DNA from: Candidatus Gastranaerophilales bacterium
Lineage (GTDB): Bacteria > Cyanobacteriota > Vampirovibrionia > Gastranaerophilales > Gastranaerophilaceae
Length of the DNA: 64,000 nucleotides
Direction of reading: 5' to 3'
NCBI GenBank assembly: GCA_947589425.1
Contig: CANQAV010000001.1
Span: forward strand, 62,001-126,000
Shown here: positions 37,496-54,030 of the stretch, piece by piece
Numbering within the stretch: position 1 is the stretch's first letter
Layout: each line of letters opens with the position of its first letter
Program-made: the position numbers and the translations under genes
The notes under the pieces: model-generated
Told to the model about the DNA's origin: nothing
Database searches by the model: none
Seen by the model: only the letters and a program-made list of their open reading frames with translations

Positions 37496-37542
37496 CCAAA
37501 GTTTTTATAATTTTTATCAAATTTTATTTTAGGGATAAAAAA

Positions 37543-37616
37543 TCGGGATGACAAGATTTGAACTTGCGACCCCCGCGACCCGAACACGGTGCGCTACCAA
37601 ACTGCGCTACATCCCG
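37543..37616 (-). tRNA. tRNA-Pro (CGG)
   Basis: The cloverleaf is complete: acceptor CGGGATG/CATCCCG, D arm GCGC/GCGC, anticodon stem CCGTG/CGCGG with loop TTCGGGT (anticodon CGG), and T arm GCAAG-TTCAAAT-CTTGT. The discriminator base is A and CCA is not encoded. It is the last element of an array with two repeats upstream on the same strand. Confidence 0.93.
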
Positions 37617-37621
37617 AAAAT

Positions 37622-37742
37622 ATATTCAACTGTCAATTTTTATTTTTATTTAAGCTCTCGGGATTTGCGCACCCCCATCATGGTTTACCTTGTTTAACAG
37701 GATGATTGCCTTTTTTGATTGGATGGGGTCCCTGCTGTATCC
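37622..37742 (-). repeat. tandem repeat copy A with tRNA-like ends
   Basis: This 121-bp unit is repeated with a period of 128 bp and differs from copy B by one base (37702). On the minus strand, 37658-37744 is an 87-base element starting CGGGAT and ending ATCCCGA. These are the same bases as the acceptor arm of the adjacent tRNA-Pro. Inside, ACCCCATC can pair with GATGGGGGT (one bulged G). The 3' flank holds TTGACAGTTGAATAT, also found just before the tRNA. A structured non-coding RNA is the best guess. Confidence 0.6.
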
Positions 37743-37749
37743 CGATTAA

Positions 37750-37870
37750 ATATTCAACTGTCAATTTTTATTTTTATTTAAGCTCTCGGGATTTGCGCAC
37801 CCCCATCATGGTTTACCTTGTTTAACAGGGTGATTGCCTTTTTTGATTGGATGGGGTCCCTGCTGTATCC
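37750..37870 (-). repeat. tandem repeat copy B with tRNA-like ends
   Basis: This copy is 120/121 identical to copy A. Its 5' terminal bases (minus strand) read TTAGGAT instead of TCGGGAT, weakening the terminal stem. A TATAAT (37885-37890) lies just upstream, so this copy, copy A and tRNA-Pro could be one transcript. A 33-codon frame begins at ATG 37879, but copy A lacks a matching start, so coding is doubtful. Confidence 0.6.
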
Positions 37871-37927
37871 TAATAGCATATTCAATTATACTTACAATAA
37901 ACCAATCGGAAAAAAAATTCAACAATT

Positions 37928-39112
37928 CTATTTTCCGTTAAAATTTTCCTCAAGCGACCAACACTGTCTTGTTAAATAAAAATCATCCGCCATTAGCAAA
38001 AATTTTTCAATAAAGTTTTTAAAATCACTTTCTTCAATTAAAATATTTCCCATTGCGCTTAACTCATCTTTAACCGTCATATTATTTAAAAGCGTAATTT
38101 TTTCAACTATATCCGCTTCATCAAGAGGATTAAAATATAAAGCCGATTTTTTAAGCTGACAGTTATACCCGAGCAAATCCGATATTAAAACCGGACACTT
38201 GAAATAAATTGCCTCAAGTGCCGCAATGCTGTCTACTCCCGCAAGCGAAGGATATACAACCGCAAATGCATTTTTGTATAATGCCGCAAGCTCACTTTGA
38301 TTTACATAATCCAAAAAAATTATATCATCGTTTAAATCAAGTTCTTTTACTTTATTAAGCAAATATTGTTTATTTCCCCTGTCAAGACCTGTGAACACAA
38401 CTTTTAAATTCATATTTTGTTCTTGCATAATTTGTGCCGCAAGGATTAATCTTATATGATTTTTATGAGTCCAAAACTGCGCAGGGTATAAAACATAACT
38501 GTTTTTTTGCAGATAGTTTGAAATTAAAATTCTATCATCATCTTTAATATTTTTTACCCAATTAGGACAAGGCAATTTCATTGTCGCAATATTTTCATCA
38601 ATAACGGAATAAATTGTCTTAATGTCATTTTTTGCAATATCGTTACACGTAATAATTTTAGAAGCACTTATTAAAAAGAGGTTGAATTTCTTTTCCATTT
38701 TTTCAACGATTTGGTTTGCGGAAAACTCGGGAAAATGAGGCAAAACCCTGTGTGCGACATCTCTTATCACGGCATAATACGGAATTTCAATATGTTCGTG
38801 AATATAGGGGAATAAAAAACACGCAACATTGATATTATCTTTTTTCATTCTGTAATTAAGGGAAAAAACAGGTTTTTTATATGTTTTAAAAGAAAAAGGA
38901 CGAAGAGCAAAAACAGGTTTATAAAAATACTTAAGGCAGACAAATTGTGCATTTTTATACTCTTTAAAAAGGTTTTCCTTACCGAAATAATAAAAAACAA
39001 ATTCGTGTTTTGTTTTCTGTGATAATAATTCATCAACAAAACTTAATTCAAAAGTCAAATCTCCGACCGAAGCCGGTTTTTTAACATCTCCAAGATATAT
39101 ACCGATTTTCAA
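37928..39112 (-). CDS. GT4-family glycosyltransferase (glycosyltransferase group 1)
   Basis: A GT-B glycosyltransferase of 394 residues. The C-terminal donor domain has VLYPAQFWTHKNHIRLILAA, LKVVFTGLDRG, IIFLDYVNQSELAALYKNAFAVVYPS and LEAIYFKCPVLISDL (EX7E-type region). It starts KLKIGIYLGDVKKPASVGDL. The frame begins at TTG 39133 inside a terminator stem; TTG 39112 is better placed, 7 bases after GGGG. It probably adds a sugar to a surface polysaccharide or lipid carrier; specificity is unknown. It lies downstream of rpmB. Confidence 0.82.
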   Translation of the reverse strand: MKIGIYLGDVKKPASVGDLTFELSFVDELLSQKTKHEFVFYYFGKENLFKEYKNAQFVCLKYFYKPVFALRPFSFKTYKKPVFSLNYRMKKDNINVACFLFPYIHEHIEIPYYAVIRDVAHRVLPHFPEFSANQIVEKMEKKFNLFLISASKIITCNDIAKNDIKTIYSVIDENIATMKLPCPNWVKNIKDDDRILISNYLQKNSYVLYPAQFWTHKNHIRLILAAQIMQEQNMNLKVVFTGLDRGNKQYLLNKVKELDLNDDIIFLDYVNQSELAALYKNAFAVVYPSLAGVDSIAALEAIYFKCPVLISDLLGYNCQLKKSALYFNPLDEADIVEKITLLNNMTVKDELSAMGNILIEESDFKNFIEKFLLMADDFYLTRQCWSLEENFNGK

Positions 39113-39131
39113 CTTCAAACCCCGATTATTC

Positions 39132-39174
39132 AAAAAGACGGAAAGAAATACATAATAAGTCTAACCGTCTTTTT
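39132..39174. terminator. terminator after rpmB
   Basis: A 10-bp stem AAAAAGACGG/CCGTCTTTTT (39132-39141 with 39165-39174) has a 23-base loop. The T-run belongs to the stem on the minus strand and is extended on the plus strand. Confidence 0.55.
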
Positions 39175-52912: not shown

Positions 52913-53314
52913 ATGACAATAGCAAAAGCATTTGTAACGGGTATTGTTACCAAAGCTCCCGAAAAACGTTTTACACAAAACGATATGGCAATAGCGGGTT
53001 TTACAATTAATATTGACACAAATAACGAAACCCTGTTAAGAGTTATTGCCTTTGGTCAGCTGGCAGACACGATTTCAAACACAATCGGCGCAGGCGACAG
53101 TGTTGCAGTTGAAGGAAAACTTCAGGTTAATACCTATAAACTGCCAAACGGCAAAGACAAAAAAGTGTATGAAATTTCCGCAAATGCTGTTGAAAAAATG
53201 AATGCAAATACATCCAACCCGATTGCACATTCTCAAAATAATGAAAATCTTGTCACCTTCAATCAGGACGAAATTGCTCAAGATTTAATAGATGAAGACG
53301 AAATCCCGTTTTAG
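52913..53314 (+). CDS. ssb: single-stranded DNA-binding protein
   Basis: A 133-residue SSB with an OB fold (KAFVTGIVTKAPEKRFTQND, LLRVIAFGQLADTISNTI, GDSVAVEGKLQVNTYKLPNG) and the acidic C-terminal tip DEDEIPF used to recruit partner proteins. The start is ATG 52913, one base after the rpsF stop. The stop codon is the last normal-composition sequence before the repeat island. Confidence 0.94.
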   Translation: MTIAKAFVTGIVTKAPEKRFTQNDMAIAGFTINIDTNNETLLRVIAFGQLADTISNTIGAGDSVAVEGKLQVNTYKLPNGKDKKVYEISANAVEKMNANTSNPIAHSQNNENLVTFNQDEIAQDLIDEDEIPF

Positions 53315-54030
53315 AAAACCCGAGCAGGGTGAGTCTTAGTTCGCAGGGCGAACTTGACGAACGAATGCGAGGGCAAAGGTGTGTGGAGCACACGCACGGC
53401 AAGCGTGGAGCTTGACGGGCTTGTGCGTAATCCGTACCATGGCGACGTGGAAATCTCCGATTTCCTCAGGAGCAAACCCGAATGAAGCGAGCTTTAGTGC
53501 GACTGCACTTAGCGAGCAAAATGAGGGCACAAGAGTGCGAAGCCCGTGACGGCAGACCGTTGAGGTCTGGCGGACAGGGCGCAGACATTTCTATGCCGCC
53601 GTAGGATAATTGAGCAATGCGAAGCGACTTAGCGAAGCACTTGCGAGATACCCACAGGCGGAAAGCATGAGCCAAGTGAGTTTTAGTTCGCAGGGCAAAC
53701 TTAGCGAACGACGGCGAGGGCATAAGAGTGCGAAGCCCGTGACGGCAGACCGTTGAGGTCTGGCGGACAGGGCGCAGACATTTCTATGGCGACGTAGGAT
53801 GTTGAGCGTTTGAGCATCCAAGGGGTATAAAACACATGTTTTGTACCGGCAGCAGTCAGACCCTGAAACAAGTTCAGGGTGACAATGTAAGACAATGTAG
53901 GACAATTGAGGCTGGTGCGAATACAGGCGAAGCCGAGGTGAAGCAAACGGCTTGCGATGAATAAGACTATTGCGAAACCGAGCGAATACGAGGGCACAAC
54001 CCACACCTCACACAAACCATAAAAACATTA
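53315..54030. repeat. GC-rich composite repeat island within the rpsF-ssb-rpsR operon
   Basis: About 0.7 kb, visibly richer in G and C than its surroundings, with no credible gene. It contains direct repeats: an 84-bp block at 53523-53606 and 53716-53799, differing at a few bases; and GAGT.TTAGTTCGCAGGGC.AAC at 53331 and again at 53678. Inside each 84-bp block AGACC pairs with GGTCT. It looks like a cluster of dispersed intergenic repeats of the kind known from other bacteria. All six frames give Ser/Cys/Arg-rich nonsense typical of such DNA. Confidence 0.75.
53860..53880. repeat. REP-like palindrome
   Basis: ACCCTGAA (53860-53867) and TTCAGGGT (53873-53880) form a perfect 8-bp stem with the loop ACAAG. 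This CACCCTGAACTTGTTTCAGGGT-type palindrome recurs in intergenic regions of many unrelated bacteria and gives the familiar spurious translation HPELVSGS. Confidence 0.75.

Follow-up and report, generated by a model that had tools for sequence, protein, structure and literature searches.

Structured, gene-less repeats at the ends of tRNA and tmRNA genes in Gastranaerophilaceae: a probable family of insertion elements with complementarity to their targets

Background

tRNA genes are classic landing sites for mobile DNA, and the elements known to use them are large, insert mostly at the 3' end and bring an integrase. Among them are tRNA-integrating islands and prophages (e.g. the tycheposons of Prochlorococcus, found in the related cyanobacteria), which make good the lost end of the tRNA gene that they enter, often together with its terminator. 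Integron integrase accepts its attC site as a folded single strand, and the REP transposase recognises its hairpins. Rickettsia palindromic elements (RPE) are palindromic selfish DNA of ~100–150 bp inserted within genes; to our knowledge they are not tRNA-specific, and we know of neither target reconstitution nor a target-complementary segment in them.

Here we analyze a pair of repeats next to a proline tRNA gene in a stretch of 64,000 nucleotides (the window) from a Candidatus Gastranaerophilales bacterium, a member of a family that is related to cyanobacteria and common in animal guts. At the level of sequence, comparison with other genomes demonstrates a family-wide group of structured insertions at the ends of tRNA and tmRNA genes, with complementarity specific to the target.

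Repeat units at tRNA-Pro genes

Read on the minus strand, the window has TATAAT, unit A, unit B and tRNA-Pro(CGG) in this order, and the two units have 121 bp in common, with one mismatch and a period of 128 (Table 1). The same order and figures had been given in an earlier, sequence-only reading of this DNA and were reproduced here. Core A (37872–37786) begins with TAGGATACAGC and core B (37744–37658) with CGGGATACAGC, and both end in ATCCCGA. The earlier reading had compared these ends to the acceptor ends of the tRNA; the starts and the ATCCCGA ends were correctly described, but the comparison of the 3' ATCCCGA with an acceptor strand is not the better one. In the window units it extends upstream as TGCGC, complementary to nt 10–14 of the tRNA, and the units found at tRNA-Pro(GGG) mostly end in GTCCCGA, the exact complement of their own 5' strand, the 3' strand of that tRNA being GTTCCGA. 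A reading of ATCCCGA as the tRNA 5' end in reverse complement thus fits better. The segment TTGACAGTTGAATAT had been placed before copy A; it is located instead between A and B (37764–37750) and before the tRNA (37636–37622), copy A having only TTGAATATGC. The ACCCC...GGGGGT pairing of the proposed internal hairpin (P2 in Table 1) was reproduced. Folded singly, copy B is only moderately more stable than shuffled sequences (z -1.7), and copy A shows no such excess in stability (z 0.2). The case for structure therefore rests on comparison. The variable loop of the window copies corresponds to the loop of P2, and the P2 helix (C17-G72) has one compensatory change, from C-G to U-A.

Table 1. Features of the two repeat units and the adjacent tRNA gene in the window
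Feature	Position	Strand	Basis
TATAAT, probable -10, single promoter upstream of both units	37885..37890	-	sequence; conserved promoter in other occupied/empty alleles
Unit A: decayed copy of tRNA-Pro nt 1-11 (TAGGATACAGC)	37862..37872	-	compared with tRNA CGGGATGTAGC
Unit A: hairpin P2 (ACCCC...GGGGGT) and long loop	37799..37857	-	folding, pair comparison
Unit A: complement of intact tRNA 5' end (GTGCGCAAATCCCGA vs TCGGGATGTAGC^GCA)	37786..37800	-	sequence; family rule
Duplicated leader between A and B, includes TTGACAGTTGAATAT	37745..37785	-	sequence
Unit B: copy of tRNA-Pro nt 1-11 (CGGGATACAGC)	37734..37744	-	sequence
Unit B: hairpin P2	37671..37729	-	folding, pair comparison
Unit B: complement of intact tRNA 5' end	37658..37672	-	sequence; family rule
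Functional tRNA leader, a copy of which accompanies each unit, includes TTGACAGTTGAATAT	37618..37657	-	sequence
Complete tRNA-Pro(CGG), reconstituted target	37542..37617	-	ARAGORN; Rfam RF00005 60 bits

The insertion point of the units in tRNA-Pro(CGG) falls between nt 11 and 12 (TCGGGATGTAGC^GCAG). The copies of the tRNA end are most decayed in the outermost unit (TAGGATACAGC), less so in the next (CGGGATACAGC) and intact in the tRNA, a gradient that is expected if the gene is rebuilt on the inner side each time, or if the innermost copy is kept by selection. Searches against Rfam 15, in gathering and permissive modes, gave no match of the units above the gathering score, and in the window region and at related loci only real tRNA genes matched; a few weak matches in other places are due to chance or to tRNAs read on the reverse strand. 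A simple consensus promoter scan gave no strong match at the window locus. The motif TGAAAATTRAATA, related to the window leader, occurs in 17 copies in the window genome (G000), against 2 for the reversed pattern. Of the 17, 14 lie just before tRNA genes or units (e.g. C3:149140, C2:18; L201, L198), as a shared leader motif.

The tRNA-Pro(TGG) gene of this genome has a single unit in front of it, which shares the ends and the spacer of the window units and differs in its loop; no unit was found there at tRNA-Pro(GGG). Within the genus, units of the form TCGGGAYGTAGC-AGGGACCCC-loop-GGGGGTGCGCAARTCCCGA occur immediately 5' of tRNA-Pro genes, whichever of the three anticodons these have, each unit followed by a lineage-specific spacer that also occurs 5' of the tRNA, and the same units are present in named Gastranaerophilales MAGs. 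The exact Pro pattern has 24 loci in MAGs of the Gastranaerophilales type, 16 at tRNA-Pro and 8 at a contig end, and no match in IMG/VR. Together with the second unit at tRNA-Pro(TGG), these loci take the observation well beyond chance. Across the tRNA-Pro units the 12 pairs are 98% formed, with 5 double-change cells compared to 1.4 in shuffled data, and sliding the partner by one column reduces the pairing to about half.

A second, longer, G+C-rich repeat (ACCCGAG...TTAGTTCGCAGGGCGAACTT...GAGGGCAAAGGTGTG...CGTAGACCGTACC) was also detected (window 53316–53850; L005, L011, L017, L026, L066, L298). In the window it follows a gene ending near 53314, and it is also found inside several tRNA-Pro units, as if it inserted into hairpin loops.

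Element anatomy and target complementarity

The units are not specific to proline: tRNA genes of many isotypes, as well as tmRNA, carry them. We inspected the flanks of all 38 tRNA genes found in the window genome, 36 in G008 and 40 in G033; in each a different subset of tRNAs is preceded by a copy of the tRNA's own 5' end and by a stretch that can pair with the 5' half of the same tRNA. In the window genome the complements at Arg(ACG) (CACTCTATCCAACTGA), Phe (ACCAACTGAGCT), Met (CCAGACTGCTCCA) and Leu(TAG) (TTCGCCACAG) were reached in none of 60 shuffles. Other tRNAs have downstream copies of their 3' end and terminator (Ile 25 nt, Glu 20 nt, Met 20 nt). The 3' end of tRNA-Phe in G008 mirrors the 5' arrangement, CGGCAGAGT being the reverse complement of the ACTCTGCCG seen in the 5' units of Leu and Met.

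The element comprises ~90–145 bp of non-coding DNA. Read in the ACTCTGCC direction, an outer flank with the tRNA end is followed, after the junction (^), by the hairpin P2 (ACTCTGCCGA-arm-loop-arm-GAGAGG), often but not always by a hairpin P3, and by the target complement, after which come a second outer flank and tRNA end, joined (^) to the remainder of the tRNA. The second flank is the leader at 5' sites and the terminator at 3' sites, and a complete tRNA gene with its flank always remains. Insertions at the 5' end usually follow nt 11 (Leu, Met, Pro) and in some cases nt 8, 13 or 17–21; those at the 3' end fall where the T-stem meets the acceptor (Phe, Lys, His, Arg, Leu, Gln, tmRNA). The 3'-type elements, including those at tmRNA, have mirror orientation and lie beyond the tRNA terminator.

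In the 47 elements inspected the junction has the form X^ACTCTGCC, where X is tRNA sequence. An exact complement to the intact target of at least 7 nt is present in 30 of the 47, compared to 5/47 with shuffled spacers and 4/47 with the targets of other elements. It spans the insertion point, often reaching exactly 3 nt past it (Leu, Phe, Lys, Pro) into sequence absent from the left-over copy, and the segment fits the intact target better than the left-over copy does. Pairing of the left-over tRNA end with the complementary segment of the element makes the stem P1. P3 is either generic (GCAAAAGCGAAGCGGTTGC) or consists of the right side of the target in sense and antisense, as in GTAGAGC-AG-GCTCTAC at tRNA-Phe of G020 and GAACCCC-TT-GGGGTTC at tmRNA. 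In P2, 84% of cells are paired, against 61% (maximum 66%) when the 3' arms are shuffled among elements, and each of the seven positions has 2–4 pair types. The Leu-caa element folds as a three-way junction with z about -4, both as RNA and as DNA; folded as RNA, ACTCTGCC elements were clearly better than shuffles in only one of four cases. The element strand can fold as a three-way junction with covarying stems. A kink-turn was considered for P2, in which UGCCGA/GA resembles one, and was rejected because the loop length and the Pro variant fit poorly.

The tRNA-Pro units lack ACTCTGCCGA, and their P2 is the ACCCC...GGGGG variant; their putative link to the main family rests on the shared architecture and on an intermediate, L083. 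This locus (JAISCP010000003.1, labelled Heliobacteriaceae) carries tRNA-Pro units of the Gastranaerophilaceae element family despite the Firmicutes name of its MAG, and is probably part of a mislabelled or mixed bin.

Distribution

These genomes show a strong excess of ACTCTGCCGA (50 of 58 relatives). The commonest version of the element, ACTCTGCCGA-N16-40-GAGAGG, was detected in 165 genomes out of 386 drawn from the phylum (about seven matches in total for the reversed-pattern control), that is in nearly all sampled genomes of the family and in G039 from a sister family of the same order, with none in other classes among the 386. Among 75 genuine elements read in context, 40 lie at most 700 bp from a tRNA or tmRNA gene and 10 more at contig ends; with G032 left out, the figures are 29 of 36 and 5, with 2 elsewhere. 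Where the ten-base word occurs without the hairpin, a tRNA is nearby for just 4 of 26 matches. Targeting of tRNA genes is not absolute, since G032 has 23 modules away from tRNAs.

In that genome (L241–L282) dozens of ACTCTGCC modules off tRNA genes follow repeats such as GTCATTCTGAAC and AGAAGTGGTACAC, which suggests that the P2 module also enters other dispersed repeats. Scanning IMG/VR for the ACTCTGCC module gave 120 matches, 117 of them without paired arms; two of the other three look like chance in G+C-rich DNA, and one is genuine. The latter (L324 3448–3493, IMGVR_UViG_3300011008_000426) is a hairpin module between two genes of a viral contig, without a tRNA; by eye, the neighbouring genes are baseplate-like. 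Such a contig is a possible vehicle for the element.

Evidence for insertion

The gene upstream of the window units (37928–39133) was tried as a marker of synteny; in several relatives it is near tRNA-Pro(TGG), not CGG. The CGG locus is thus rearranged and unusable as an empty site, so tRNA-Pro(TGG) was taken instead. This gene has no unit in G001, G025 and G026 and has one in G000, G002, G012 and G021, with a recognisably shared upstream promoter region in empty and occupied alleles. At tRNA-Phe, G022 is empty, with promoter, leader and tRNA in line, and G020 is occupied: the same promoter and leader are followed by a copy of the tRNA 5' end, ~97 extra bp and the complete tRNA. Empty and occupied alleles at the same tRNA genes indicate that the elements are insertions, and that they are insertions at tRNA ends at all we regard as highly probable. 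As at island insertions, occupied genes have a partial tRNA copy at the far junction and an intact tRNA at the near one.

The element was also compared with MITE-like non-autonomous transposons, which have a short target-site duplication and terminal inverted repeats. P1 is an inverted repeat that includes target sequence. In tandem arrays the duplicated flank is ~30–50 bp long, varies in length and is non-identical at several outermost junctions (L217, L261). At the 3' sites of Lys in G012 and Gln in G032 the terminator proximal to the tRNA is unlike that of the outer copy. The element may therefore bring its own flank, and not just duplicate that of the host, although the cases are few and decay of the outer copy is an alternative. 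As to present movement, there was no direct sign of it, neither a circle nor an excision event being seen. Two contigs of G000 end in the same tRNA-Met unit, which indicates that the units break assemblies.

These observations also bear on the earlier view of a structured, tRNA-tied and recently duplicated family, which was borne out, compensatory changes included. Copy number varies between strains, and in the window genus the units sit nearly always beside a tRNA gene; scattering without compensatory changes, which had been named as evidence against the idea, is not seen in that genus, and in one other genus, that of G032, ACTCTGCC modules are also dispersed away from tRNAs. Retro-like duplication, one of the origins offered, comes nearest in spirit, as regards insertion and duplication, but nothing points to reverse transcription.

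Proposed mechanism and rival explanations

We infer the following mechanism of movement. The window repeats would be tandem copies of a Gastranaerophilaceae insertion element with the anatomy described above that spreads as folded DNA, a proposition that we consider evenly balanced. As the comparison shows, the element enters a tRNA gene near either end and re-supplies the piece that is cut off, i.e. the leader with nt 1–11, or the 3' strand of the acceptor with the terminator. A recombinase or transposase, predicted to act in trans, would recognise the folded single-stranded DNA of the element. Since its complementary strand runs unbroken past the insertion point, the P1/P3 duplex may imitate the uncut target, P2 protruding from the opposite strand where the cut lies. 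Such a structure would suit a recombinase able to use folded single-stranded DNA instead of a duplex. To assume that a single folded strand is recognised at the level of DNA would also be more economical, since the 3'-type elements are reversed and lie beyond the terminator, with the motif outside the tRNA transcript. Tandem copies could result from repeated insertion or from unequal exchange. Units of the 5' type would be transcribed in a long pre-tRNA leader, fold before the tRNA is made and be removed by the RNase P cut; such a unit would sequester its own copy of the tRNA end, which may explain why insertion is tolerated and does little harm. More generally, one could envisage a class of gene-less mobile DNA aimed by base pairing, in which each unit bears the complement of its own tRNA target, with a three-way junction that imitates the target, an enzyme acting in trans and a re-supplied tRNA end, at the 5' and the 3' ends of tRNA and tmRNA genes alike; we offer this only as a tentative idea that may well be wrong.

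Searches for a candidate enzyme found integron integrase (TIGR02249) above the cut-off in none of 174 genomes of the family. The Y1/REP transposase (PF01797) is present in 58 of the 174, and in none of eight sampled genomes of the window genus, all of which carry elements. An autonomous long form was sought in 20–40 kb around two element ends beside a Hachiman and a type IIG system, and no closed island was found. In G006 (C4:82698; L218, L300) the Hachiman genes HamA and HamB start ~75 bp past an element end that bears the 3' end of tRNA-Lys, and that tRNA-Lys flank recurs at the real tRNA-Lys, at a distance of 21.8 kb; core genes (dapF, an aminotransferase) lie between the two copies, so this arrangement is probably a rearrangement or a misassembly. 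In G017:C4 (L302 2405–5946) a type IIG restriction-methylation enzyme and a specificity subunit lie between tRNA-Phe and a decayed ACTCTGCC element.

The strongest rival and main competitor of this explanation is template switching during replication or repair at tRNA hairpins, without a dedicated recombinase: a sense copy is made, a fold-back gives the antisense copy and synthesis restarts upstream. Inverted and direct duplication would then arise in one event, and P2 would be a separate mobile hairpin or be kept as a folding aid. The order of the segments (left sense, P2, right sense, antisense from right to left, leader, left, right) fits a fold-back with a return upstream, many P3 hairpins are the right side of the target in sense and antisense, and no enzyme of the element was found in the above searches. 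On the other hand, ACTCTGCCGA...GAGAGG is a conserved feature of many tRNA sites and of almost every genome in the family and also occurs between two genes of the viral contig, generic P3 hairpins that are not made from the target are common, and chance template switching should not be confined to one bacterial family. On balance, we consider this origin rather unlikely.

If the units acted in the transcript instead, as a regulatory leader, the complement would pair either with the upstream copy, leaving the tRNA free, or with the tRNA, blocking it, in an attenuator-like switch of tRNA supply. Such a role agrees with the position of the 5'-type units downstream of the promoter, where they are transcribed with the tRNA, and with the better fit of the complement to the real tRNA than to the copy. 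It is nevertheless improbable, given that 3'-type elements lie past the terminator in the opposite orientation, their strand-specific P2 motif outside the tRNA transcript, that presence at the same tRNA differs between close relatives, and that targets of many isotypes share no logic. The sequence-only reading had offered, among other origins, small RNAs derived from tRNA and excised by RNase P and RNase Z from a precursor. The tRNA-Pro units gave some reason for it, since their ends repeat the 5' end of the tRNA and can form a stem like that of an acceptor; yet the units have no T-arm and no match to the tRNA covariance model (RF00005), and away from tRNA-Pro the 3' side does not correspond to an acceptor strand: the 3' segment at Leu, Met, Phe, Thr, Arg and others reverse-complements the target around the insertion point, D-arm or T-arm included. 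Nor does processing account for the 3'-end copies, which are mirrored past the terminator, outside any precursor. This origin now seems highly improbable, and insertion of an element that spreads as folded DNA is the explanation that we prefer.

Comparison with known systems

A literature search, which covered few subscription journals, returned nothing on such elements, and the kind does not seem to have been described before: across a whole bacterial family, gene-less hairpins of ~100 bp stand at the 5' as well as the 3' ends of tRNA and tmRNA genes, and each includes a segment complementary to its own target. If recognition of the target by pairing proves true, it would be a new way to aim the insertion of DNA; if not, the elements would still be striking selfish DNA that repairs the gene broken by its insertion, and a clean natural system for the study of template switching and hairpin recombination at tRNA genes. 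They also explain assembly breaks at tRNA genes in these genomes.

As with the internal guide sequence of group I introns, one segment of the element is complementary to the sequence on either side of the insertion point. The analogy is functional only: no catalytic core was found, so that group I identity was rejected, no exon is split, and a complete tRNA follows the unit. Rickettsia palindromic elements are of similar size, palindromic and located in genes, and the present element differs from them by tRNA targeting, reconstitution of the target and the complement. With the REP/BIME and REPIN sequences and their RAYT transposases it shares the character of small, dispersed, strand-specific hairpins and, as predicted here, mobilisation in trans, but it is found inside tRNA genes, no REP consensus was recognised in it, and the sampled genomes of the genus have no Y1 transposase.

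The tRNA-integrating islands resemble the element in insertion into a tRNA gene and restoration of its end. They extend over kilobases, whereas the element has ~100 bp; no island-type integrase gene or cargo was found, a minimal unit of ~100 bp being too short to hold a gene. Defence genes are seen beside two element ends. Moreover, the element also restores the 5' end together with the leader, and it carries a segment complementary to the target. The attC cassettes of integrons are alike in their variable terminal structure, tandem arrays and direct junctions and, as predicted here, in a strand-specific recombination site folded from a single strand. In the 174 Gastranaerophilaceae genomes, however, no integron integrase was found, and ACTCTGCCGA/GAGAGG is not the attC core (GTTRRRY / RYYYAAC); the unit carries no gene, its target is a tRNA gene, and its stem copies that target.
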